The notes under the pieces: generated by a model
What the model was told of the DNA's origin: nothing
Databases searched by the model: none
What the model saw: the letters and a program-made list of their open reading frames with translations, nothing else
Made by a program: the position numbers and the translations under genes
Assembly: GCA_023701135.1 (NCBI GenBank)
Contig: JAMPXP010000006.1
Location: forward strand, 62,001 to 126,000
DNA length: 64,000 nucleotides
Reading direction: 5' to 3'
Origin: Desulfobacula sp.
GTDB taxonomy: Bacteria; Desulfobacterota; Desulfobacteria; Desulfobacterales; Desulfobacteraceae
Part shown: piece by piece, positions 22,036 to 46,390 of the stretch
Position numbering within the stretch: the stretch's first letter is position 1
Layout: every line of letters begins with the position of its first letter

Positions 22036-23925
22036 TTAGCCGCCAACTTGTGGTGCTTCGAGTTTCGTCACGGCTTTTTTCAAATGCTCATCGATAACCA
22101 AGCCGATTGTGTGCTCACTCATCTTACCACTATGCTGTGTCTTTGCTTTTTCTAAGAGCAAAAGGATCTCTTTCAAAAAACCAACCTCACTGGTAAGTTT
22201 CCCGTTGAATCCATGGAATTTGTATCTTTCATCAAAAACATACGCAACAGTTCTTCTCTGATCCGGGGTTAGCTCAAGGAAAGCAGTTACGAAGTCAGAG
22301 GGAAGGATATAGGCAAGTATTGGGACCTCAGAAAATTTGTTATCCTCGTGGTTGCATAGAATCAAAGACCTACAGAATTTGTTCGTGTCTTCCTTCATTA
22401 GTTGGAGAAGATCTTTGGCCTCGGATGTGTAGCTTTCAAGGACGGCTTCCTCCTCTTTGTCCGAAATGTACTTGATAAGCCCTTTAAACATGTCATCATC
22501 CTTGGAATGAAAGCCAAGGCCACCCCATGATTCAGTATCTAATGCAAACAATCGTCTGGTATTTTGCTGCAATAGATGTCCATGTTGCTTAAGCTGATCT
22601 ACGTACTGCTTGGAAAACGCAAAAATTTCACCTTTAGATTCACGGTACAGGCCAATATCTGAAAGCCAAAGGAGTAAACCAGCCACATGTTTGACCACAC
22701 CTATTTCAGTGTATGTCTTGGCCCGCCATTCAGAGTCCACCTTTTCCAAGACATTCTCAAAATCGGAGTCGGGCAAGTCCCTTCCATGCCATAGTCTCAC
22801 CCAATTGGGCTGGTTTTCAGATTGAAAATATTTGCTGTTTCTGATAGCCGCTTCGATCTCCGCAGATGCAATGAATCCTTCATCAAACCAGGACTGCCAA
22901 AGGGATTCTTGAAATATAGTGTCGTACAAATCGACACCGGTATATTTTGTCCTGACATCCAGGTATTTTTGATATGGATTGGGCTCTTTTTTCCTCACCC
23001 CTATAGAAAAGTATAGACTGCTCCTGAATTTTGAGATTTCATTGGAGCAGATTGTGCCGCTCATGATCTCAAAAGAATAGACGAGAAACAAGGTCAAGAA
23101 ATGAGAGACAAACGCTTTATTGTTTGTAATGTCGTCGGGAAGTTTTACAAAAAGACGGTCGAAATCCCATAGTGCGTGCTTCAGGATTCTGAGATTTCTG
23201 TAGCTTGAGCTGTGATAAAGCAGAATTACAAGTGATTTGTTCTCATCAATCGCCTTTTTTGCTTTCTCACATTGAAGCTGAACGACAAAATGGCTGAGAG
23301 CTGGTGCTATTTCTGGCTTTATTTCAAAAGTCTTCCCAATAAGCTTTTCTTTAACTCGTCGGTACGCACTGAACTTTGATTCGTCTATCTTTTCTCTTTC
23401 CACAATCTCGTTTTCATTAGCGACGAGAATTACCTTGAATTCACCATGTTCGACAAATTTGTTAATGTATCCGAGGAGGTGACAGATTGGGATTGCACAT
23501 CGTTCAACGTCATCGAACACCAGCACTTTCCCTTCAGCGGATTTCAGTGAATCAAGGAATTTTTCGTTCGGAACGCCAACTGTAAGGGTTCCATCTGATT
23601 GACCATCGCTGTCAATGTCCACTTTTACCGTTGCCTTAAGTAAACCCTTAGTCAGCATTCCTAACAGTTTTACGCTCTTAGAAGCTAGCCACGGGTGCAA
23701 CTGCCTGAAGAATTCGCTTTCGATGTCCTCAACTGATGTGACTCCGTAGAGACTGACATAGAGATGCCCCTGGCCTTTATTCTGCAGTTCATTCAGACAT
23801 TCCTGAATGAACCATGATTTACCCGTACCCCATAATCCCTTGATGAGAACTGCATACTCGGGCGAACTGTTGAGGAGGCAATAGTAGGTGAGGAAATCAC
23901 GAATATGCTGATTATCAGATGCCAT
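22036..23925 (-). CDS. KAP-family P-loop NTPase
   Basis: A 629-residue protein with Walker A GLWGTGKS at residues 30-37, Walker B VLVFDDVER at about 135-142, and a following VILVANENE strand, the pattern of KAP P-loop NTPases. Beyond about residue 300 no domain is recognised. No clear membrane helix is visible, unlike many KAP proteins. Many KAP-type NTPases occur in variable or anti-phage loci, so a defence role is possible but not shown. Base composition is clearly richer in A+T than its neighbours. AAGGAGGG precedes the ATG. The gene stands alone, with repeat debris 13 bases past its stop, suggesting horizontal transfer. Confidence 0.82.
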   Translation of the reverse strand: MASDNQHIRDFLTYYCLLNSSPEYAVLIKGLWGTGKSWFIQECLNELQNKGQGHLYVSLYGVTSVEDIESEFFRQLHPWLASKSVKLLGMLTKGLLKATVKVDIDSDGQSDGTLTVGVPNEKFLDSLKSAEGKVLVFDDVERCAIPICHLLGYINKFVEHGEFKVILVANENEIVEREKIDESKFSAYRRVKEKLIGKTFEIKPEIAPALSHFVVQLQCEKAKKAIDENKSLVILLYHSSSYRNLRILKHALWDFDRLFVKLPDDITNNKAFVSHFLTLFLVYSFEIMSGTICSNEISKFRSSLYFSIGVRKKEPNPYQKYLDVRTKYTGVDLYDTIFQESLWQSWFDEGFIASAEIEAAIRNSKYFQSENQPNWVRLWHGRDLPDSDFENVLEKVDSEWRAKTYTEIGVVKHVAGLLLWLSDIGLYRESKGEIFAFSKQYVDQLKQHGHLLQQNTRRLFALDTESWGGLGFHSKDDDMFKGLIKYISDKEEEAVLESYTSEAKDLLQLMKEDTNKFCRSLILCNHEDNKFSEVPILAYILPSDFVTAFLELTPDQRRTVAYVFDERYKFHGFNGKLTSEVGFLKEILLLLEKAKTQHSGKMSEHTIGLVIDEHLKKAVTKLEAPQVGG

Positions 23926-34816: not shown

Positions 34817-35326
34817 CTATTTTGCCGGCGGAGGGGTGAACACCCGCTGGGCCAGTTCATTGTCCAGCATAAGAAGGCCGTGGCCTTCACCGTTGATGAG
34901 TTTTAATTTATTCACAATGGTTTCCATGGAGGATTCTTCTTCCACCTGTTCTTCAACAAACCAGTTGAGATGGATCCGGGCGGCATGATCGTTTTCCTTG
35001 ATGGCAAGGTCCATAAGAGCGTTGATCAGGCTTGTCACCAGCTTTTCATGGTCATGGGCCATCTCAAATACGTCCAGAGCGGATTTGAAATCGGTCTTCG
35101 GAGCTTCAATGGCCTTTAGATATACCCGTCCTCCCCTCTCATTGACAAATTCATACATTTTCATGGCATGGGCTCTTTCTTCCTGGACCTGGACCAGGAA
35201 GAAATTTTCAAACCCTTTTAACCCGGCGGAATTAAAATAGGCCGCCATGGAAAGGTAAAGATATTCGGAAAACAATTCCCGGTTGATCTGCTGATTGTAC
35301 GCGTCCTGCAGTTTCTGTGAAATCAT
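34817..35326 (-). CDS. Ferritin
   Basis: A 169-residue four-helix bundle iron-storage protein without heme-binding features. Ferroxidase-site residues are visible in INRELFSEYLYLSMAAYF, VQEERAHAMKMYEF and EFVNERGG, with the C-terminal helix holding FVEEQVEEE. It should oxidise and store iron in the cytoplasm and protect an anaerobe from iron-driven oxidative damage. AGGAGG precedes the ATG. It converges with the gene at 33952 across a strong terminator. Confidence 0.95.
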   Translation of the reverse strand: MISQKLQDAYNQQINRELFSEYLYLSMAAYFNSAGLKGFENFFLVQVQEERAHAMKMYEFVNERGGRVYLKAIEAPKTDFKSALDVFEMAHDHEKLVTSLINALMDLAIKENDHAARIHLNWFVEEQVEEESSMETIVNKLKLINGEGHGLLMLDNELAQRVFTPPPAK

Positions 35327-37965: not shown

Positions 37966-38343
37966 CTATGGTTTTTTCCAGGCCGGGTGTACGATATCCT
38001 GATTCAGGCGGATATGCATGTCCTTTAGGCTCCGGGGGATAACAAGGATAGATGCAATTTCGGAATGCCCCATGGCATGATATTGGTTTCTGAGGTTGGG
38101 AAAATCAGCATGTTTAAGCAGATAGGCCAGGGCATCTATCCTTTGTTCCAGGATGCTTTTTTCTTTTCCAGAGGAACAGAATTTAAAATACTGTTGGATC
38201 AGTCGTTCATACTCTTTTTTGGAAGCGGTTTCAATGCAGTGCCGGCTTGTGTCCAGAATCATTTCCATGGATGGTTTTTCGATTTTCGGGAGTCTTTCCC
38301 CATAACGGTATATGGCCTGGCTGTCCTTTGCTGAATCTCTCAA
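37966..38343 (-). CDS. Small unknown protein at the end of the ORP-like cluster
   Basis: A 125-residue soluble, basic, helix-rich protein with no family I recognise. Its likely start is a TTG at 38343 overlapping the stop of the PocR-domain gene (ATTGA), which suggests translational coupling; no in-frame ATG occurs until about residue 26. Residues around 35-55 hold CIETASKKEYERLIQQYF. Being last in the operon, it may be an output or regulatory partner of the PocR protein. Confidence 0.6.
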   Translation of the reverse strand: MRDSAKDSQAIYRYGERLPKIEKPSMEMILDTSRHCIETASKKEYERLIQQYFKFCSSGKEKSILEQRIDALAYLLKHADFPNLRNQYHAMGHSEIASILVIPRSLKDMHIRLNQDIVHPAWKKP

Positions 38344-38867
38344 TTGGCAAGGTTGGCATAGGTCTGAACAATGGTTTCCAATCGGCTTTCAATATAGTCG
38401 CAGGCAGATTTGGCCCTATCAAGACTCATGGTCGGGATGTCAACGGCAAGGCCTTTGATTTTGTCTTCCGGTATGTCGGTTATTTTGTTGATGCTGAAGG
38501 CATCCACTTCGCCTTCATGGGGCAGAAGGCCGCATCCGCCGACAACACCCAGAAATTCATCATCGTAAAAAACCGGCACAACCAGCTTGAGCAGTCCGGC
38601 ATCACATTCTTCAATAACCGGTTTTTTGCTCTGCCGGGCCTGGTTTGACAGATTCATATGGGCCACGGCGCAGATGTAACTCTGGCCCTTATCAAGGGAT
38701 TTGATCACCGGGCAGAGTGAATTGGACCAGTGCTTGTTGCTGGTGATCCGGATGCCGCCTGCATTAAATACGGAGCTTTGAAGGTGATAGAGGGTGACCA
38801 GGTCTGATTCAAGGTCGCTCCATTTTTCAATGGGTAAAATATCGGTTAATTGCATTTTTGAGCTCAT
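38340..38867 (-). CDS. PocR ligand-binding domain protein (sensor)
   Basis: A 175-residue protein that is almost entirely a PocR ligand-binding domain, a PAS-like fold found in regulators. Typical segments are SSVFNAGGIRITSNKHWSN-like, CPVIKS, CDAGLLKLVVPVF and LGVVGGCGLLP, with cysteines (CPV, CAVAH, ECDAG, GGCG) that in relatives may hold a metal or cluster. No DNA-binding or kinase domain is attached, so it must act through a partner. The start could be 38867 or 38855. It lies in the ORP-like operon and overlaps the following unknown gene. Confidence 0.8.
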   Translation of the reverse strand: MSSKMQLTDILPIEKWSDLESDLVTLYHLQSSVFNAGGIRITSNKHWSNSLCPVIKSLDKGQSYICAVAHMNLSNQARQSKKPVIEECDAGLLKLVVPVFYDDEFLGVVGGCGLLPHEGEVDAFSINKITDIPEDKIKGLAVDIPTMSLDRAKSACDYIESRLETIVQTYANLAN

Positions 38868-38976
38868 TCCTTTGCCTTTGCTACAAGGCCTGACATATAA
38901 TGTGTCAAGGCCTCCTGAACCGTCCGCGCCGCAAGGCTTGTACAATGAAGGTCTTCTTCGGGCAGCCGGTCCATGG

Positions 38977-39231
38977 TTAAAACTGCTTCCCGCAGCAAGA
39001 TCCCGGGCCTGCGCAGCCTTGGGCCTTGCCCGGCGCAGACCCGCAACAGGCCGTATCCTTGAACCCGGGCACGGTATTTTTGACCGGCCCCGACATGGAG
39101 GAGGGGGCCGACATCTGTTTGGTCATGTTTGAACTGCCGCAGGATCGGCAGCAGGGCTGGTCCCCGGTTCCAAAGACCAGGAGTTCCGTCAGGCTGCCGC
39201 AGTCCGCGCATTTGAATTCATACAGGGGCAT
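38977..39231 (-). CDS. FmdB-type zinc-ribbon protein
   Basis: An 84-residue protein starting MPLYEFKCADCG, with a second CRSCG, the two CxxC pairs of the FmdB regulatory zinc ribbon. The C-terminal third is rich in cysteine and glycine (CCGSAPGKAQGC, CCGKQF), as in several anaerobe versions. The function is unclear; FmdB-like proteins often sit near oxidoreductase genes. AAGGAAGG precedes the ATG. It follows the ORP/NifX-like gene by 18 bases in the same operon. Confidence 0.87.
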   Translation of the reverse strand: MPLYEFKCADCGSLTELLVFGTGDQPCCRSCGSSNMTKQMSAPSSMSGPVKNTVPGFKDTACCGSAPGKAQGCAGPGSCCGKQF

Positions 39232-39249
39232 GTATTCCTTCCTTTGCCG

Positions 39250-39609
39250 TTACCAGTGGCCGTCTTTGTTGGCGCTCTGGGCGTAAACGGCCCCGCCCTG
39301 TTTGAATCGCTGAATCACGTCAATGACCCGGCCGCTCTGGTCGCTCACCACTTTTACCCCGGCGGCGTTCAGGGTCTCGAAGGCATTGGGGCCGCAGAAG
39401 CCGGTCAAAAGGACTTCGGCATCCTTGTCGCTGATCATGGCCGCAGCCTGGATCCCGGCCCCCTTAAAGGCATTCTTATTGGTGTCATTGTCAAAGGCCT
39501 CAAATTCAAGGGTTTCCGTATCCACCACAAGGATGTACGCTGCCCTGCCGAACCTGGGGTCAAGCTGGGAATCCAGGGATTTTCCCTGGGAGGTCACTGC
39601 TATTTTCAT
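39250..39609 (-). CDS. ORP-like NifX/NifB-family (dinitrogenase FeMo-cofactor-type) protein
   Basis: A 119-residue protein of the Nitro_FeMo-Co fold: MKIAVTSQG start, DPRFGRAAY, and LLTGFCGPNAFETL. Size and domain match the orange protein of Desulfovibrio, which binds a mixed molybdenum-copper-sulfide cluster; whether this one does cannot be read from sequence. It lies beside two MinD-type ATPases, as ORP genes do in D. vulgaris. AAGGAGGG precedes the ATG. Confidence 0.88.
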   Translation of the reverse strand: MKIAVTSQGKSLDSQLDPRFGRAAYILVVDTETLEFEAFDNDTNKNAFKGAGIQAAAMISDKDAEVLLTGFCGPNAFETLNAAGVKVVSDQSGRVIDVIQRFKQGGAVYAQSANKDGHW

Positions 39610-39633
39610 TTTATGGCCCTCCTTATGGCCGGA

Positions 39634-40017
39634 TTAATGTCCGCCGCCACCGCCGCAGACCTGGTCATTCTTGATTTCAGACAGTCTGCCGGCAATGAGA
39701 TCCTTTACCACGGGTTCGATCTCAACGCGCTGATCATCGTGGTATACATTGATCCCGACCTGCCGGAATCCCATGAGGGGCCGCATGCCGATGCCGCCGA
39801 CCACCAGGGCGCTGACCCTGTTTTCGGAAAGCAGGTTGACCGGGACCATGCAGCCGCCCTGGACGTGTTCCTGGTTCTGAAGGATGGATACTTCTTTGAT
39901 CTCGCCGTTTTCCACGTCAACCAGGGTGAACACGTCGCAATGGCCGAAATGTCCTGCTCTTGTTCCGTTTAGTCCGCCCTGGCCGTTTGAAGGAATTGCA
40001 ATTCTACCGTTTTTCAT
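39634..40017 (-). CDS. Second NifX/ORP-like protein with glycine-rich C-terminus
   Basis: A 127-residue Nitro_FeMo-Co-fold protein (RIAIPSNGQGG, ARAGHFGHCDVF-like GHFGHCDVFTLVD, VGGIGMRPLMGF). The extreme C-terminus is VCGGGGGH, a Cys-Gly5-His ending that could be a metal ligand. Start 40017 is set by GGAG 10 bases upstream and by the fold's first strand; the open frame further upstream falls inside the ATPase gene. It lies between the ATPases and the first-named ORP-like gene. Confidence 0.87.
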   Translation of the reverse strand: MKNGRIAIPSNGQGGLNGTRAGHFGHCDVFTLVDVENGEIKEVSILQNQEHVQGGCMVPVNLLSENRVSALVVGGIGMRPLMGFRQVGINVYHDDQRVEIEPVVKDLIAGRLSEIKNDQVCGGGGGH

Positions 40018-40030
40018 AATTTGATGACTC

Positions 40031-40930
40031 CTATAAATGATTGAGGATTGGGGTTGCAGGGGTATTGAAAACCGGCAGGGACAGGACTCTGTCCCAGATC
40101 TGCCGGACTTCTTTAGCGGCCTGTGAACCGGGGTTGTATTCAAAAATGGTTTTTGTCTGGATCATGGCCTCGGTAAAGGCCGGATCAAAATTTATCCTGC
40201 CCGTCACCGCGATATCGGCCTTTTGGGCCAGGTCTTCTATTTTTTGCGCCTGGTCCGGATTCAGGTCATATTTGTTGATGCAGACCATAGCCGGGATATT
40301 AAAATGTTTTGAGAGCCGGCCCACCCTTTCCATATCATGGAGGCCTGAAACCGTGGGCTCTGCAACGATAAGGATGGCTGTGGCCTGGCCCATGGAGGCA
40401 ATGACCGGGCATCCGATGCCCGGAGGGCCGTCGGTCAGGATGAGGTCCAGATTGTTTTTTGCGGCCAGTTTTTTGGCTTCCGTCCGGATGAGGGACACCA
40501 GTTTGCCGGAATTTTCCTGGGCAATGCCGAGACGGGCATGGACCATGGGACCGAACCGGGTGTCGGAAATATACCATTGGCCGGATACGGTTTGCGGAAA
40601 ATCAATGGCATGTTCAGGGCAGAGATCCACGCAGACCCCGCAGCCTTCACAGTCGATGGGGTCGATTTCAAAGGAATCTCTCACGGCCCCAAACCGGCAG
40701 ACCTCCATGCACCGGCCGCATTGGGTGCAGAGATCCGGGTTGATGACGGCTTCATGACCGCCTTTGAATTCCATGGTCTCTTTAAAATCAGGGTTCAGGA
40801 TCAGGTGAAGGTCCGCTGCATCCACATCGGCGTCACACAGGACCATATTTTTGGCCAGGGAGGCAAAGGCTGCGGTAATACTTGTTTTGCCGGTCCCGCC
40901 TTTTCCGCTTAAAATCACCAGTTCTCTCAT
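40031..40930 (-). CDS. MinD/Mrp-like ATPase with inserted 2x4Fe-4S ferredoxin domain (first)
   Basis: A 299-residue ATPase with the deviant Walker A motif GKGGTGKTS at residues 9-17. Two ferredoxin motifs are inserted at about residues 68-110 (CTQCGRCMEVC and CEGCGVCVDLC), and LILTDGPPGIGCPV lies near 165. In D. vulgaris such paired ATPases belong to the ORP complex. The ATG overlaps the stop of the second ATPase gene by 4 bases, so the two are probably made in equal amounts. It may move clusters or couple ATP hydrolysis to metallocluster insertion (inference). Confidence 0.93.
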   Translation of the reverse strand: MRELVILSGKGGTGKTSITAAFASLAKNMVLCDADVDAADLHLILNPDFKETMEFKGGHEAVINPDLCTQCGRCMEVCRFGAVRDSFEIDPIDCEGCGVCVDLCPEHAIDFPQTVSGQWYISDTRFGPMVHARLGIAQENSGKLVSLIRTEAKKLAAKNNLDLILTDGPPGIGCPVIASMGQATAILIVAEPTVSGLHDMERVGRLSKHFNIPAMVCINKYDLNPDQAQKIEDLAQKADIAVTGRINFDPAFTEAMIQTKTIFEYNPGSQAAKEVRQIWDRVLSLPVFNTPATPILNHL

Positions 40931-41781
40931 TTGCTGCCTTCCTTTTTTTCAACGAGGGCCACGATCTTTTTAAACAGGTCCAGGAATTTGTCCTTGTATT
41001 CAGGAATTTTATCTACGATCATCTCTCCTCTGGAATAAATTTGGGCAATCTTTTTATCAAAGGGAATCTCCATGAGGACAGGGATATTTTCCTTTTTTGC
41101 ATATTGGTTCACGGCGTCATTGCCGATGCCCACTCGATTGATGACGAGCCCGCAGGGAATGCCCAGGATTTTTACGGTTTCAACGGCCAGTTTCAGGTCA
41201 TGGAGGCCAAAGGGCGTGGGTTCCGTCACCAGGAGGATGAAGTCCGCCTTGTTCATGGCGGCGATGACCGGGCACGAGGTTCCGGGCGGCGCATCAATGA
41301 GGGTGATCATGTTCGGGTCCGTATAGGACCGGATCTTTTTGATGATGGGGGGAACCATGACCTGGCCGATGGCGAGCCGGCCGTCGATAAAAGAAATGCC
41401 GTTAACGGTCCCGTGCTCGATGTCCCCCAGGGATCTTTCCTTTTCCAGGACGGCGTGTTCAGGGCAGATTTCAAAGCAGCCGCCGCAGGAATGGCAGAGG
41501 TTTTCAAAGACCAGGACGTTTTTTTTGAGGACGGCCAGGGCCCCGAACCGGCAGATGTCCATGCATTTTTTGCAGAAGCTGCATTTTTCAAGGTCGATTT
41601 TCGGCACCGGGGCAATGACCGGTTCTATTTTATGGATGGACGGATGAAGGAAAAGATGGGCATTGGGCTCTTCCACGTCACAGTCAAAAAGCTGGACTCC
41701 CTGGCCGATGGATAGGGCAAGGTTGGTGGATACCGTGGTCTTTCCGGTTCCGCCCTTGCCGCTGGCAACGCTGATAATCAT
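40927..41781 (-). CDS. MinD/Mrp-like ATPase with inserted 2x4Fe-4S ferredoxin domain (second)
   Basis: A 284-residue paralogue of the neighbouring ATPase. Walker A is GKGGTGKTT at residues 8-16; the ferredoxin motifs are CSFCKKCMDIC and CHSCGGCFEIC at about residues 69-108; DAPPGTSCPV follows near 165. Its start overlaps the pseudo-receiver gene by 4 bases and its end overlaps the first ATPase by 4 bases. The two ATPases are close in layout but only moderately alike, consistent with a heterodimer. Confidence 0.93.
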   Translation of the reverse strand: MIISVASGKGGTGKTTVSTNLALSIGQGVQLFDCDVEEPNAHLFLHPSIHKIEPVIAPVPKIDLEKCSFCKKCMDICRFGALAVLKKNVLVFENLCHSCGGCFEICPEHAVLEKERSLGDIEHGTVNGISFIDGRLAIGQVMVPPIIKKIRSYTDPNMITLIDAPPGTSCPVIAAMNKADFILLVTEPTPFGLHDLKLAVETVKILGIPCGLVINRVGIGNDAVNQYAKKENIPVLMEIPFDKKIAQIYSRGEMIVDKIPEYKDKFLDLFKKIVALVEKKEGSK

Positions 41782-42185
41782 TTGTTCCCGGCTCCTTTTA
41801 CGGATTTTACCTGATCCGAGATCCGGCTGATCCGGGCCAGGTGATCCTGAAGTTTTTTGGCTTCCGCTTTGCCCGGTATCAGGGGAAACCGCATCAGAAC
41901 ACCCAACCCTTCATAGGCTTCATGAAAATCCTCATCGGACATGGCGCTGAGGACCACACAATTCATCATGGCATTGAGGGTGATGAGGTTCTCCACCAGT
42001 TTCTTGGCCGTCATGTCCGGCACCTGTTCGTGAATGATCACAAGATCAATTTTTTTTCCGGCAACCAGGGCAAGGGCTTTTCCAGCCGTATCAGTCCATA
42101 GGGTGGTGATTTGATTTTCTGAAAATGAAGCGGTAAGGTCTTTAAACCTATTTTTTTCAGGGCCCACGAGAAGTATCTGGTTCAT
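41778..42185 (-). CDS. Pseudo-receiver domain protein in the ORP-like cluster
   Basis: A 135-residue receiver-fold protein. The third strand reads DLVIIHEQVPDM, placing His52 where the phosphorylated Asp should be, and the N-terminal acidic pair is absent (LLVGPEKN). It should not be phosphorylated in the usual way and may act as a binding adaptor. The lysine of strand 5 is also not obvious. Its coupling by 4-base overlap to the MinD-type ATPase gene points to that ATPase as partner. AGGAGG precedes the ATG. Confidence 0.75.
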   Translation of the reverse strand: MNQILLVGPEKNRFKDLTASFSENQITTLWTDTAGKALALVAGKKIDLVIIHEQVPDMTAKKLVENLITLNAMMNCVVLSAMSDEDFHEAYEGLGVLMRFPLIPGKAEAKKLQDHLARISRISDQVKSVKGAGNK

Positions 42186-42201
42186 ATAAAGAGGACCTCC
42201 T

Positions 42202-42612
42202 TTAATCCTTTGGTGTTTCCGGCTTATTCCGGTTGATATCCGTCAAGGCGAGATAAAAGGCGCCAACGGCAAGTTCGGCGCAGTGGAAATGGTCTTCAGG
42301 AAGGGTTTCCAGAAAACGGATCACTTCTTCGGGGCTGATTTCCCATGCCCTTTCAACGGTTTTTCCCATGGACAGCTTGGCAACCGTATTGCAGCAAGCA
42401 GTGGTGTTCATACAGCCGTCCACATAAAAGGAGACCGATTCAATGATATTGTCCTTGCAGATCAGAAAAAATTCAGCCGTATCTCCGCATTCGCCCGTTC
42501 TTTTTCCGTATCCGTCCGGCCGTGTAATTCTTTCAATTCTGTCAGTGCTCAAGGCCATTTCAATATATTGCAATGAATGGGAGCTTAAAAAATCACGATG
42601 ATCCGGTTGCAT
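42202..42612 (-). CDS. NifU/IscU-like iron-sulfur scaffold protein
   Basis: A 136-residue protein resembling the IscU/NifU N-terminal scaffold. Cysteines lie in RTGECGDT, DGCMNTTACCNTV and HFHCAELA, giving the three cluster-binding cysteines plus extras. It should assemble and hand on Fe-S clusters. ATG 42612 is selected because AAAGGA sits 6 bases upstream; ATGs at 42618, 42627 and 42648 are also in frame. It heads the nine-gene ORP-like operon, just after a sigma-54 promoter. Confidence 0.85.
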   Translation of the reverse strand: MQPDHRDFLSSHSLQYIEMALSTDRIERITRPDGYGKRTGECGDTAEFFLICKDNIIESVSFYVDGCMNTTACCNTVAKLSMGKTVERAWEISPEEVIRFLETLPEDHFHCAELAVGAFYLALTDINRNKPETPKD

Positions 42613-42650
42613 TCTCATTCCTTTCATAAACATGGACACCGTGGACATAA

Positions 42651-42666
42651 AGCAAAGGCCATGCCA
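42651..42666 (-). promoter_or_regulatory. Sigma-54 promoter of the ORP-like operon
   Basis: Read on the minus strand, TGGCATG-GCCT-TTGCT matches the -24/-12 consensus TGGCACG-N4-TTGCW at all but one defined base, with the invariant GG and GC 10 bases apart. Transcription should start near 42640, some 28 bases ahead of the NifU-type gene. Activation would need an enhancer-binding protein, and none is encoded in this window. ORP operons in Desulfovibrio are sigma-54 dependent, which supports the call. Confidence 0.75.
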
Positions 42667-42854: not shown

Positions 42855-44570
42855 ATGACTGTTTTTTATAAGGATTTTGAGCCTGAGGACCTGCCGGTTC
42901 CCGGCAAACAGGTCATGCACCTGATTCAATATGTCCTGCGTGAGGACGTCTCCATGGAGACGCTCAGCCGTCTCATATCCGTAAACCCGGCATTGACGGC
43001 CCAGCTTCTGCGTCTTGTCAATTCCGCTTTTTTCGGATTCCGCCACCGGATCAAGACCATTTCCGAAGCGGTGGTGGCCCTGGGTCTGGACCGCCTGAAA
43101 AATCTTGTCCTGTGTTTTGCCGTAAAAGAAGCGCTTTCTAAAAAAGAGATTCCCGGGTTTGATGGCGACAGCTTTTGGGAAGACTCGATTCGGAGGGGTG
43201 TGGCTGCCCGCCAGATTGGAATCCTCGTAAAGGGGTCTGTTGAAGAGGCTTTTACCGCAGGCGTGCTCCAGGATATCGGATTGCTGGTTCTTTTTTTTAT
43301 GGAGCCGGAAAAAGCCGACCGGTGGCCTTTGCTGCGGGCTCTTCTGCCCGAAGACCGCCATAAAATGGAAGCGGAACTCTTCCATGCCGGCCATGACAGT
43401 GTGGGAGCCCTCCTGGCCCATCAGTGGAATCTGCCGAAATCCTATGTGCTTGCCATGGATCATCATCATCGCCTGTTTTCTGAAACCAGGATAAAAGTGC
43501 CGATTCCGCTGCAAGGAACAGATGTTCTCAGCGGTATGCTGCATCTGTCGGATTTATGCAATGCCTTTTATACCTGCCATGATAAATCCGGAGCCCTGAT
43601 GGGTTTGAAAAAAAAAGCCGGGCTGATGTTCGGCTTAACCGGGGATGAGGTGGCGTCCCTATTGTCAAGTCTGCCGGACCTGGTAATGGACATTTCCAAT
43701 GTATTGAGCCTGACCCTTGGAAATCAACCCGGGTTTGACAGGATCATGGAACAGGCAGGCCAAAAACTGGTCGAGGACAATATCAGCTACCAGGAACTGA
43801 CCTGGCGGCTCCAGCGGTCTTTAAAGGAGCGGGATGGATATGCCTCAGGACTCAAAAAAGAACTGGACGCAGCCCGGGAAATTCAGAAGCGCCTTCAGCC
43901 TGAGGGCAACCTCTTTAGCGGTATCAGGGCCTTTAATATACCGGCCTCTTATCTGTCCGGTGATTTTTTTGATTATTTTCAAAAAGAAGACGGCAGAATT
44001 TATTTCTGCCTTGGCGATGTGTCCGGCAAAGGAACGGGAGCTGCCTTGCTCATGGCAAAAGCCGTATCCATGTTTCGCTGTTTGTGCAGGGTTGTAACGG
44101 ATATCAGCACGGTTGTAGAGATAATGAACAATGAACTGTGTGAAACAGCCGTCAGGGGAATGTTTGTGACCTTTGTGGGGGGGTGGTTCGATCCCGGGTC
44201 CAAAGACCTTATGATGCTGAACGTGGGCCATCCGCCCCCCTTCCTTGTGGATGAGAAGGGGATCATCCGGGTTGAAGCTACTGATCCTCCCCTGGGGGTA
44301 TTGCCGGGCATCCTCCATCCTGCTAAGCGGTTTTCCCTGAAAAACAGGAGGCTTTATCTTTATACCGATGGGTTTACGGAAGGCCGCCTGAGAAAAGCCG
44401 GGTCAAAAATTCTTGAAGGGCAATTGGGGATAAAGGGATTTTTACGCTGGCTGGTTCAGTCCCGGAACCTGTCCCTTGACGAGCAGACGGCGTTTATCCG
44501 TGAACAGTGCAGAATCCAACTGGAACCCCGGTCCGATGATCTGACCCTGATGATCCTGTCGGGAGAATAA
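42855..44570 (+). CDS. HDOD domain fused to SpoIIE-type PP2C phosphatase
   Basis: A 571-residue signalling protein. The N-terminal HDOD domain (about residues 12-215) shows SVNPALTAQLLRLVNSAFFG and AFTAGVLQDIGLLV. A coiled linker follows (near 300-345). The C-terminal PP2C/RsbU-type phosphatase (about 350-570) has the metal-binding SGDFFDYF and GDVSGKGTGAALLM, then LYTDGFTEG and DDLTLM. It should dephosphorylate a STAS protein. GAGAAGG precedes the ATG. The RsbW-like gene converges with it, 5 bases away. Confidence 0.93.
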   Translation: MTVFYKDFEPEDLPVPGKQVMHLIQYVLREDVSMETLSRLISVNPALTAQLLRLVNSAFFGFRHRIKTISEAVVALGLDRLKNLVLCFAVKEALSKKEIPGFDGDSFWEDSIRRGVAARQIGILVKGSVEEAFTAGVLQDIGLLVLFFMEPEKADRWPLLRALLPEDRHKMEAELFHAGHDSVGALLAHQWNLPKSYVLAMDHHHRLFSETRIKVPIPLQGTDVLSGMLHLSDLCNAFYTCHDKSGALMGLKKKAGLMFGLTGDEVASLLSSLPDLVMDISNVLSLTLGNQPGFDRIMEQAGQKLVEDNISYQELTWRLQRSLKERDGYASGLKKELDAAREIQKRLQPEGNLFSGIRAFNIPASYLSGDFFDYFQKEDGRIYFCLGDVSGKGTGAALLMAKAVSMFRCLCRVVTDISTVVEIMNNELCETAVRGMFVTFVGGWFDPGSKDLMMLNVGHPPPFLVDEKGIIRVEATDPPLGVLPGILHPAKRFSLKNRRLYLYTDGFTEGRLRKAGSKILEGQLGIKGFLRWLVQSRNLSLDEQTAFIREQCRIQLEPRSDDLTLMILSGE

Positions 44571-44575
44571 TTTTT

Positions 44576-44998
44576 TTAAAAATTCCAAGGTGTTAGCTTT
44601 TTTATGAGTTTGACCTGATTCAGCCCTTCAGGGGTATGGCTGTATTCCACCACGTCCATGACCTGCCGGATGATATGAACGCCCAGCCCCCCTGGTTTTA
44701 TCTCCCGGATGTCCCTGGGTTTGATCGAATCGATATCAAAGGGCTTTCCATTATCAACAAGGACAAGGCAAATAGAATCCCTGTCAAGAGTGGCGGTGAC
44801 GTCAATGCTTCGGGTCGGATCATTTTTACAGCAGTGTTTGATAATATTGGAACAGGCTTCATCAACCGCAAGAATGACGGAGCCGGCCTCTTTTTCAGCG
44901 AGTCCGGCGGCGGCAGCGACCTTGGCGGTCATGGCCCGGATCTGTTTCAGATTAGCCGGGTGAGCCGTAATGCGGATGTGAATGTGATCAGATGCCAT
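44576..44998 (-). CDS. RsbW-like anti-sigma/serine kinase (HATPase_c_2)
   Basis: A 140-residue GHKL ATPase-kinase. The N-box is VDEACSNIIKH near residue 47, and the G-boxes are VDNGKPFD near 88 and GGLGVHIIRQVMD near 105. Such proteins phosphorylate STAS antagonists and bind sigma factors or other targets. Flanked by two SpoIIE-type phosphatase genes, it is probably the kinase half of a partner switch. The nearest STAS gene is at 48493. It shares strand with the GAF-SpoIIE gene and lies 24 bases downstream of it. Confidence 0.9.
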   Translation of the reverse strand: MASDHIHIRITAHPANLKQIRAMTAKVAAAAGLAEKEAGSVILAVDEACSNIIKHCCKNDPTRSIDVTATLDRDSICLVLVDNGKPFDIDSIKPRDIREIKPGGLGVHIIRQVMDVVEYSHTPEGLNQVKLIKKLTPWNF

Positions 44999-45022
44999 AA
45001 ATCACGAACCCCCTAAAAAGGG

Positions 45023-46339
45023 TTAATGTATTGAAAATGTCAAAAGGGTTAAATCATCACTCCTGCCTTCGGTGTCGGCAAACCGGTCCACTGCGTTTGT
45101 AATGCCCAGGCAGATGGACTCCGGATCATTGGGTCCGGACTTGATGACCTTTAAAACCCGGTTTAATCCGAACAGCTCTGACAAGGTGTTTTTTGCTTCA
45201 ATCACGCCGTCCGTAAAAAGGGTGACACTGGCGTTTCCCTCAAGATCAAACGTTTCCTCATGGTATTCGGCGTCCGGAAGGATGCCCAGGGGCGGGCCTT
45301 TTTTCCCTTCGTCCCCCAGGAGCCTGGGACCGTTTTGATCACAATAGACAGGCGGCAGATGGCCTGCATTGGCCATTTGAAGACGATTCTTTTGCGGGTC
45401 CAGCAAAAGATAAATCAGGGTTACAAACATGCCCCTTTTGGCCCGGCCGCATAAGACTTGGTTTATCCTTGTCAGAAGGTCTCTGGGTTCCGGATACACA
45501 AGGGTATAATACTGGAGATCGCTGGTCAGCCGGGCCATGCCCAAAGAGGCGGAAATCCCTTTCCCGGACACATCCCCGAGAACAATGCCGAGTTTGCCTG
45601 ACGGCAGGTTGAAAAAATTGTAAAAATCCCCTCCGATTTCAAGGGCCGGCTGATTCACCGCAGCAAATCTGCAATTTTTAATAACAGGCAGATCCTTTGG
45701 CAGAAAGCTTTCCTGGACTTCCCTGGCCAGCTTCAAATCCCGCTCCAGGGTTTTTCTCTGAAGGATGATCCGGTGCAACCGGGCCGTGTCAATGGCAACG
45801 GCGGCGCTGCTGCCGATGGTCATCAGCATTTCAAGTTCTTCACTGGTAAAGGCAAAGGGAGGTGTCTGTTTGTTGATCACCTGGATCACCCCAATGATCT
45901 CCCCCTTGATTTTCAGGGGAACACAGAGCATGGCGCGGGTCCGGTAACCTGTTTTCCGGTCTGCCTCACAAGAAAAATTCGGATGTTCATAGGCATCTTC
46001 AAGGTTGAGAGGTATCCCGGTTTCGGCCACCAGACCGGCGATACCCTTTCCTTTTTTCAGGCGGTATAATTCTTTGATATCGTCTCCGACCTCGCCAAGG
46101 GCTATCTGGAAGGTTAGATCCCCTGTTTTTTCATCGACCAGGAGCAGGCTGGCCGATTCCGCAAGAAAAACCTTTTGCGTGGCCGTCATGACATTGGAAA
46201 GCAGTTTTCCGATGGACAGTTCGGAATTGATCAGATTGGCGATTTCAATGCAGTTGGACAGGCGCTCGACTTTGTTGATGCAGGACTTAAGGTCTGTTGA
46301 GTGATCGGTGGGCACGAATTCCGGAATATTTTTTTTCAT
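45023..46339 (-). CDS. GAF domain fused to SpoIIE-type PP2C phosphatase
   Basis: A 438-residue protein. A GAF domain lies at about residues 40-190 (ESASLLLVDEKTG, MLCVPLKIKGEIIGVIQVINK), then a coiled linker (LERDLKLAREVQESFLP), then the RsbU/SpoIIE phosphatase from about 215 with GGDFYNFF, GDVSGKGI, LFTDGVIEA and SDDLTLL. It likely dephosphorylates a STAS protein in response to a GAF-bound signal. ATG 46339 is chosen; the frame is open to a TTG at 46384. It is divergent from mlaF. Confidence 0.93.
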   Translation of the reverse strand: MKKNIPEFVPTDHSTDLKSCINKVERLSNCIEIANLINSELSIGKLLSNVMTATQKVFLAESASLLLVDEKTGDLTFQIALGEVGDDIKELYRLKKGKGIAGLVAETGIPLNLEDAYEHPNFSCEADRKTGYRTRAMLCVPLKIKGEIIGVIQVINKQTPPFAFTSEELEMLMTIGSSAAVAIDTARLHRIILQRKTLERDLKLAREVQESFLPKDLPVIKNCRFAAVNQPALEIGGDFYNFFNLPSGKLGIVLGDVSGKGISASLGMARLTSDLQYYTLVYPEPRDLLTRINQVLCGRAKRGMFVTLIYLLLDPQKNRLQMANAGHLPPVYCDQNGPRLLGDEGKKGPPLGILPDAEYHEETFDLEGNASVTLFTDGVIEAKNTLSELFGLNRVLKVIKSGPNDPESICLGITNAVDRFADTEGRSDDLTLLTFSIH

Positions 46340-46390
46340 ACCGGATTTTATATAAAGCCTTTTAAGGTTTGTCAATCCTTGCAATTCCCG

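Follow-up and report, generated by a model that had tools for sequence, protein, structure and literature searches.

The nine-gene operon considered here raises the question of whether it encodes a metallocluster system of a new kind or a form of one already known. It lies in a stretch of 64,000 nt from the assembly of a sulfate-reducing bacterium, Desulfobacula sp. (GCA_023701135.1, contig JAMPXP010000006.1), referred to below as the window, which is on G000:C11; the host genome is 4.8 Mb in 42 contigs and 98.87 % complete. The nine genes (42612–37966) are all on the minus strand, tightly packed behind one sigma-54-type promoter motif. Their order is a NifU-N gene (g1), a pseudo-receiver (g2), two MinD ATPases with ferredoxin inserts (g3 and g4), two NifX-type proteins (g5 and g6), an FmdB zinc ribbon (g7), a PocR protein (g8) and a small protein (g9). 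A preliminary description of the window had claimed this order and set of domains, both of which are confirmed by the sequence and by Pfam matches. It had also stated that no described system has exactly this content, which is too strong for the core, as this has already been described in Desulfovibrio vulgaris as the orange protein (ORP) system. The nine-gene operon is a lineage variant of that known system and not a new kind; a wholly new system was rejected on account of this ORP core. What is new in the finding is that the pseudo-receiver is linked to ORP-type genes.

Judged by sequence, the core of the operon is the ORP system described in Desulfovibrio. The two ATPases, g3 (40927–41781) and g4 (40031–40930), are of the MinD type, match CbiA/ParA in Pfam and each contain an insert with two Fer4 stretches, giving two [4Fe-4S] motifs per protein. 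In the available excerpts of the D. vulgaris work, Orp3 and Orp4 are likewise MinD-type ATPases with two 4Fe-4S motifs that co-purify with Orp8 (PMC6345978). The single-domain Di-Nase protein g6 (39250–39609; PF02579, 77.8 bits) has the orange protein 2wfb as its best solved-structure match (E 3e-25). The designation 'ORP-like metallocluster operon' in the preliminary description is therefore right and can be strengthened, with g6 an ortholog of the orange protein (ORP/Orp8) and the ATPase pair fitting the description of Orp3/Orp4. The other NifX/Di-Nase protein, g5 (39634–40017; PF02579, Nitro_FeMo-Co, 65.3 bits), is nearest to the C-terminal domain of MrpORP, a fusion of Mrp and Di-Nase domains; it matches positions 265–364 of NF041136 (MrpORP) at 50.9 bits, far below the cut-off of 450. 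PF02579 matches in the genome comprise g5, g6, a NifB-like protein (recognized by eye from its cysteine motif) and two other short proteins. A further NifX-type protein of the genome (L004, on G000:C29) has a His-rich C-terminal end.

The distribution of the ATPase pair was followed in 148 genomes of the phylum, 146 genomes of the order and a survey of named relatives. At E ≤ 1e-45, g3 is matched in 89 of the 148 phylum genomes, with a single match in 88 of these 89, and in 120 of the 146 order genomes, the window's own included; this threshold misses some ATPases, as L216 holds one in an order genome scored without it. Profiles built for this analysis were used to annotate 169 loci in all, made up of 89 phylum loci from 88 genomes (the window's own excluded) and 80 of the 118 confirmed loci of the named-relative survey. 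The named relatives are labelled Desulfobacula, Desulfotignum and Desulfofustis and, more distantly, Methanosarcina, Methanolobus, Thorarchaeota and Omnitrophota. The closest for g3 is L127, from a Desulfobacterales metagenome-assembled genome (MAG), with 92 % identity over 277 residues. Alignments that passed length and score limits hold the g3 sequences of 164 loci and the g4 sequences of 158. Seven of the eight insert cysteines are present in every aligned sequence of both proteins, and the remaining one is present in all but one of each (163/164 for g3 and 157/158 for g4). Three Methanococcoides loci (L158, L163 and L174) have, ~3.3 kb upstream of the ATPase pair, a 642-residue protein matching the ferredoxin-MinD profile, perhaps a fusion.

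The promoter motif TGGCATGGCCTTTGCT (42651–42666, minus strand) is the sole match of TGGCAYRNNNNTTGCW in the 64 kb window, where 0.06 would be expected from shuffled sequence. A sigma-54-type promoter sequence, here as a predicted motif, is a further mark of the ORP core; the orp operons of D. vulgaris, in the excerpts available, require sigma-54 as well as the activator DVU2106 and IHF (PMC3897727; PMC4641369). When a looser sigma-54 pattern was run over the 4.5 kb preceding the first ATPase at the 169 loci, it gave 40 matches on the operon strand versus 12 on the opposite strand. Of the 40, 21 belong to the 20 closest named relatives (L127–L146), 17 of which have a match (all but L131, L145 and L146). 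In the sequence retrieved around the ORP loci, open reading frames (ORFs) with a GAFTGA-type motif, as in sigma-54 activators, are present at many of them, 39 of the 89 phylum loci included.

The pseudo-receiver g2 (41778–42185) matches Response_reg at 23.8 bits, below the Pfam cut-off of 30.2, yet its AlphaFold model (mean pLDDT confidence score 88.9) has a receiver fold and its top PDB matches are receivers, Spo0F and CheY-like proteins among them. A profile of 24 family members gave 68 matches of at least 77 bits in the order set, the next being at 50 bits; among the matches listed, the further weak ones (up to 50 bits) are ordinary receivers. The start of 57 of these 68 members is less than 5 kb from g3, with ~0.2 expected at random; this expectation assumes 4 Mb genomes and, like the other random-placement figure given below, is our own arithmetic. 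Eight more adjoin NifX-type or ATPase genes of the ORP system on other contigs (L215–L221 and L224). The remaining three are at contig ends, where L222 has only an FmdB-type neighbour and L223 and L225 have nothing decisive. Conversely, of the 120 order genomes that have g3, 65 carry the pseudo-receiver. In the phylum set, 12 of 15 matches of at least 57 bits are within 5 kb of g3; of the other three, L228 and L226 are beside ORP-type genes on other contigs and L227 is a second copy that adjoins a NifU gene.

Residues F87, H88, E92, G93, G95 and P104 are invariant in all 24 members and yield the motif FH[ED]xxEGxG. The phospho-site position is occupied by D, H, E, S or A, and neither the acidic pair nor the Lys is conserved (alignment by eye). 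The His-for-Asp change noted in the preliminary description is real in g2 but only local, and does not define the family: a definition by Asp-to-His replacement was rejected since relatives keep the Asp, the common trait being the lost acidic pair and Lys. In the g2 model the FH[ED]xxEGxG motif is placed in alpha4 and in the turn leading to beta5. The alpha4-beta5 side is the output surface of receivers. The position of the motif in the model thus suggests that the pseudo-receiver may act by docking rather than by phosphorylation.

The first gene, g1 (42202–42612), encodes a NifU-N-type Fe-S scaffold (NifU_N, PF01592, 48.8 bits, E 1e-12) in which C43, D45, C68, H111 and C112 (numbering of the aligned piece) are invariant in eight sequences; we take these to be the cluster ligands of NifU-N/IscU proteins. 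The Cys-rich zinc ribbon g7 (38977–39231) matches PF09723 (Zn_ribbon_8, 44.3 bits) and TIGR02605, both over cut-off. Neighbours were counted if they lay no more than 4.5 kb from the first ATPase and on the operon strand; the inner zone up to this distance amounts to 705.6 kb and the outer to 507.8 kb. On this count, 51 of the 89 phylum loci have an MrpORP-type gene, 42 have NifU-N, 22 FmdB, 10 the pseudo-receiver and 3 g9, and none has PocR. All six families number zero on the opposite strand over the same distance; further out, on either strand, the figures are NifU-N 5, FmdB 6, MrpORP 4 and zero for the pseudo-receiver, g9 and PocR. A looser model, with any strand and any distance allowed, places g1 in 45, g2 in 17 and g7 in 32 of the 89 loci; the stricter counts are preferred. 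Of the 20 closest named loci, 19 have the pseudo-receiver, 9 NifU-N, 8 PocR, 5 FmdB and 4 g9. None has MrpORP on the operon strand; on the opposite strand, MrpORP and NifU-N were each found once.

A second NifU-N gene (NifU2) follows FmdB intact in L128, L129, L132 and L136, that of L128 matching NifU_N at 82 bits. The window has at this place a relic of ~36 C-terminal residues (38864–38975, minus strand) resembling the C-terminal end of NifU2 in relatives, and a similar relic is found in L144. MrpORP was not found among the five PF02579 matches of the host genome, and the presence of an MrpORP-type gene near 51 of the 89 phylum loci means that it is not universal in ORP loci. Available excerpts describe in vitro transfer of Fe-S from MrpORP to the apo Orp3-Orp4-Orp8 complex (PMC6345978), so that a supplier step is already known. 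The portrayal of the operon as a 'complete assembly line' had gone beyond the gene content, since the nine genes include no cysteine desulfurase and no MrpORP was detected.

The ATPases share a further cysteine. The residue seven positions after the Walker B Asp is Cys in 164 of 164 g3 sequences (Cys170) and 158 of 158 g4 sequences (Cys174), whereas the MrpORP-type proteins of these loci have Asp at that position in 82 of 83. A count by regular expression, which includes other ORFs assigned to the models, gives for g3 Cys in 159 and no motif in 16; for g4 the figures are 141 and 41, and there is one Val. The NifH of the same genome has Cys131 at matching spacing after its Walker B Asp (by eye). 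No conserved Cys was found before Walker B outside the insert in the aligned ATPases. The g4 residue His131, kept in 152 of 158 sequences, may be near the position of NifH Cys97 (by eye).

These features can be drawn together in a tentative reading, to which we give somewhat less than an even chance: an ORP operon in a form without a detected MrpORP, in which the ATPase pair delivers electrons or a cluster to the orange protein, NifU-N is the supplier, the pseudo-receiver is a docked subunit and expression is under sigma-54. The ORP core, the sigma-54-type motif, the lack of an MrpORP match and the pseudo-receiver linkage to ORP-type genes are the parts of it that the sequence supports directly. 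In such a scheme, sigma-54 would switch on the operon, and g3 and g4 would form an asymmetric ATPase pair whose ferredoxin inserts collect electrons. The invariant Cys after Walker B would hold a cluster at the dimer interface, as in the nitrogenase iron protein, and ATP hydrolysis would gate delivery of electrons or a cluster to a metal-sulfide cluster on g5 and g6. NifU-N (g1) would supply Fe-S clusters where Desulfovibrio uses MrpORP. The pseudo-receiver would be a structural or allosteric subunit, docked by way of its conserved alpha4-beta5 side. PocR, with its four invariant cysteines (see below), may report a small molecule or cluster status. A bolder proposal, which we regard as doubtful, is that the ORP ATPase pair is in its mode of action a hitherto unrecognised relative of the nitrogenase iron protein: an asymmetric heterodimer would bridge a cluster through the Cys after Walker B and, powered by ATP, pass low-potential electrons held in its ferredoxin domains to the metal-sulfide cluster of the orange protein, and the receiver that has lost its phospho-site would be a dedicated subunit in about half of the sampled ORP-bearing genomes of the order.

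Several observations weigh against the scheme. The sigma-54 signal is slight outside close relatives, with 19 operon-strand matches in the other 149 loci set against 12 opposite-strand matches in all 169, and a GAFTGA-type activator motif was not found in the window. The pseudo-receiver is near only 10 of the 89 phylum loci. NifU-N and MrpORP occur together in 32 of these loci, NifU-N alone in 10, MrpORP alone in 19 and neither in 28; strict replacement of MrpORP by NifU-N was rejected because 32 of the 89 loci have both. Local profile alignments of g3 and g4 to the NifH of the same genome did not reach the cysteine, and when a global alignment was forced on the C-terminal half, g4 Cys174 fell opposite NifH Cys131 at a probability of only 2 %. 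Because the profile alignment to NifH is weak, the bridging cluster is offered as a hypothesis only. PocR is within 8 kb of g3 in 6 of 105 order-set matches, the window's included (~0.4 expected at random), and the g9 family is found in 72 of 146 order genomes, with ~9 of its 74 matches near ORP-type genes, again including the window's (coordinates by eye). Finally, a role in cell division has been proposed in print for the D. vulgaris ORP.

The PocR and g9 figures bear on the idea that the accessory genes are passengers and that only the two ATPases and two NifX proteins cooperate, an idea that also draws on the decay of the second NifU gene while the operon was retained. The preliminary description had taken the extra genes to belong with the ATPase pair, and for PocR and g9 this holds only occasionally. 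It fits the others better: the pseudo-receiver is linked to ORP-type genes in 65 of 68 order-level matches, and NifU-N and FmdB are near 42 and 22 of the 89 phylum loci, respectively, versus none on the opposite strand and 5 and 6 further out. We consider the passenger explanation improbable. A different function for the complex is implied by the cell-division proposal, in which MinD-like ATPases at the pole or membrane position or regulate division, with the orange protein and the pseudo-receiver as regulators. The g3/g4 ATPase fold is indeed MinD/ParA-like, and the excerpts available report that MrpORP-GFP is polar and that Orp3/4 carry a C-terminal amphipathic helix (PMC6345978; PMC4672049). 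The ferredoxin cysteines, the extra invariant Cys and the metal- or cluster-type proteins g1, g5, g6 and g7 point instead to cluster chemistry, and the ATPase pair is also found in loci labelled Methanosarcina, Thorarchaeota and Omnitrophota, so that a division role appears quite unlikely.

A metal-homeostasis or sulfide-metal storage device, induced by iron shortage or by copper or molybdenum stress and with no role in maturation, is a further rival explanation, which we consider rather unlikely. Orp8 homologs are described in the available excerpts as holding a Mo-Cu sulfide cluster (PMC6345978). The accessible part of a study of Oleidesulfovibrio alaskensis on copper surfaces lists Dde_3197–Dde_3199 in the top-ten changed genes, falling or rising with feoA and flavodoxin, one of the three being annotated as a dinitrogenase cofactor (NifX-type) protein (PMC10533852). 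This is an independent hint of a metal role. We infer that Dde_3197–3199 belong to the ORP operon from the locus number of MrpORP (Dde_3202), and that Dde_3198 is the ORP from its annotation; the copper experiment is, moreover, confounded with surface growth. A ferredoxin-bearing ATPase pair or a NifU scaffold would not obviously be needed for storage alone.

The two distal genes are PocR and g9. The stand-alone PocR domain protein g8 (38340–38855; PF10114, 59.5 bits) has no output domain, and the 'sensor' role it had been given is a guess. Four of its cysteines (C52, C66, C88 and C112) are invariant in 14 ORP-linked copies and would fit a metal or Fe-S ligand. PocR is absent from all 89 phylum loci, yet in L228, from one phylum genome, it is beside ORP-type genes on another contig. 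In three of the six order-set cases near g3 (L229, L230 and L231) it is just upstream of the first ATPase, unlike its position in the window, and because of this difference in place PocR seems to have joined the ORP locus more than once. The small protein g9 (37966–38268; ~100 aa) belongs to an unnamed family: neither Pfam nor NCBIfam matches g9 itself over cut-off, and Pfam likewise matches none of three homologs; its AlphaFold model has a pLDDT of 54.8.

The gene starts and junctions were corrected as follows. If the promoter is real, the NifU gene must start downstream of 42648, a start that is too far upstream because the promoter motif occupies 42651–42666; the most likely start of g1, 42612, is consistent with a ribosome-binding site and with homologs. 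The long starts of g1 (42648), g5 and g9 (TTG at 38343) were rejected; g5 is taken to start at 40017, g8 at 38855 (or 38867) and g9 at 38268, where four aligned homologs begin (M26 of the long ORF). Five junctions had been given as overlaps or gaps under 20 bases, and the sequence confirms them: g1/g2 gap 16, g2/g3 and g3/g4 overlaps of 4 each, g4/g5 gap 13 and g6/g7 gap 18. The g5/g6 gap is 24 bases and, with the corrected g9 start, that of g8/g9 is 71. All nine genes recur in identical order in L144, a Desulfobacula MAG, where the frame of the first ATPase looks interrupted, by assembly error or real loss. Beside the operon (42855–46384) are genes for an HDOD-SpoIIE protein (plus strand), an RsbW-like HATPase and a GAF-SpoIIE protein (both minus strand), likely a partner-switching module. 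A ferritin gene (34817–35326, minus strand) lies 2.6 kb past the operon end, and a KAP-family P-loop NTPase is encoded at 22036–23925 (minus strand); KAP-family NTPases are sometimes linked to phage defence.

Apart from PMC10533852 and the ORP papers, a search of the open-access literature gave no relevant account of this gene set or its parts. Loci with ORP-type ATPase pairs come from several phyla of Bacteria and Archaea, and both cell division and Fe-S/Mo-Cu cluster chemistry have been proposed for them. The pseudo-receiver, which in the sampled order is almost confined to the neighbourhood of ORP-type genes, should point to a partner or regulator of the complex. The invariant ATPase Cys, at a position that is Asp in nearly all MrpORP-type proteins compared, makes the electron-delivery idea testable with a simple mutant. 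Additionally, the likely Fe-S supplier beside the ORP complex varies by lineage.

The closest known system is the ORP complex of D. vulgaris Hildenborough (Orp3, Orp4, Orp5, Orp8 and Orp9; DVU2103–2109), which shares with the operon the ATPase pair with two 4Fe-4S motifs, the orange protein and the sigma-54-type promoter. The D. vulgaris genes form two divergent operons with the activator DVU2106 between them, whereas here there is one operon with all nine genes on one strand; the window has no detected MrpORP or activator motif and adds NifU-N, the pseudo-receiver, PocR and g9. Orp5 is a small Cys-rich [2Fe-2S] protein, to which the small and Cys-rich g7 can be likened by description only. 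MrpORP (Orp9, NF041136) is resembled by g5 in its Di-Nase half, but g5 is without the Mrp ATPase domain. NifH is, like g3 and g4, a P-loop ATPase with a Cys seven residues after the Walker B Asp, with weak profile similarity; it has two Cys per subunit at the interface, while g3 and g4 have a ferredoxin insert and one candidate invariant Cys. Receiver domains (PF00072) are like g2 in fold, and the g2 family differs from them in having no conserved acidic pair or Lys, a variable phospho-site, its own FH[ED]xxEGxG motif and a genomic link to the ORP system.

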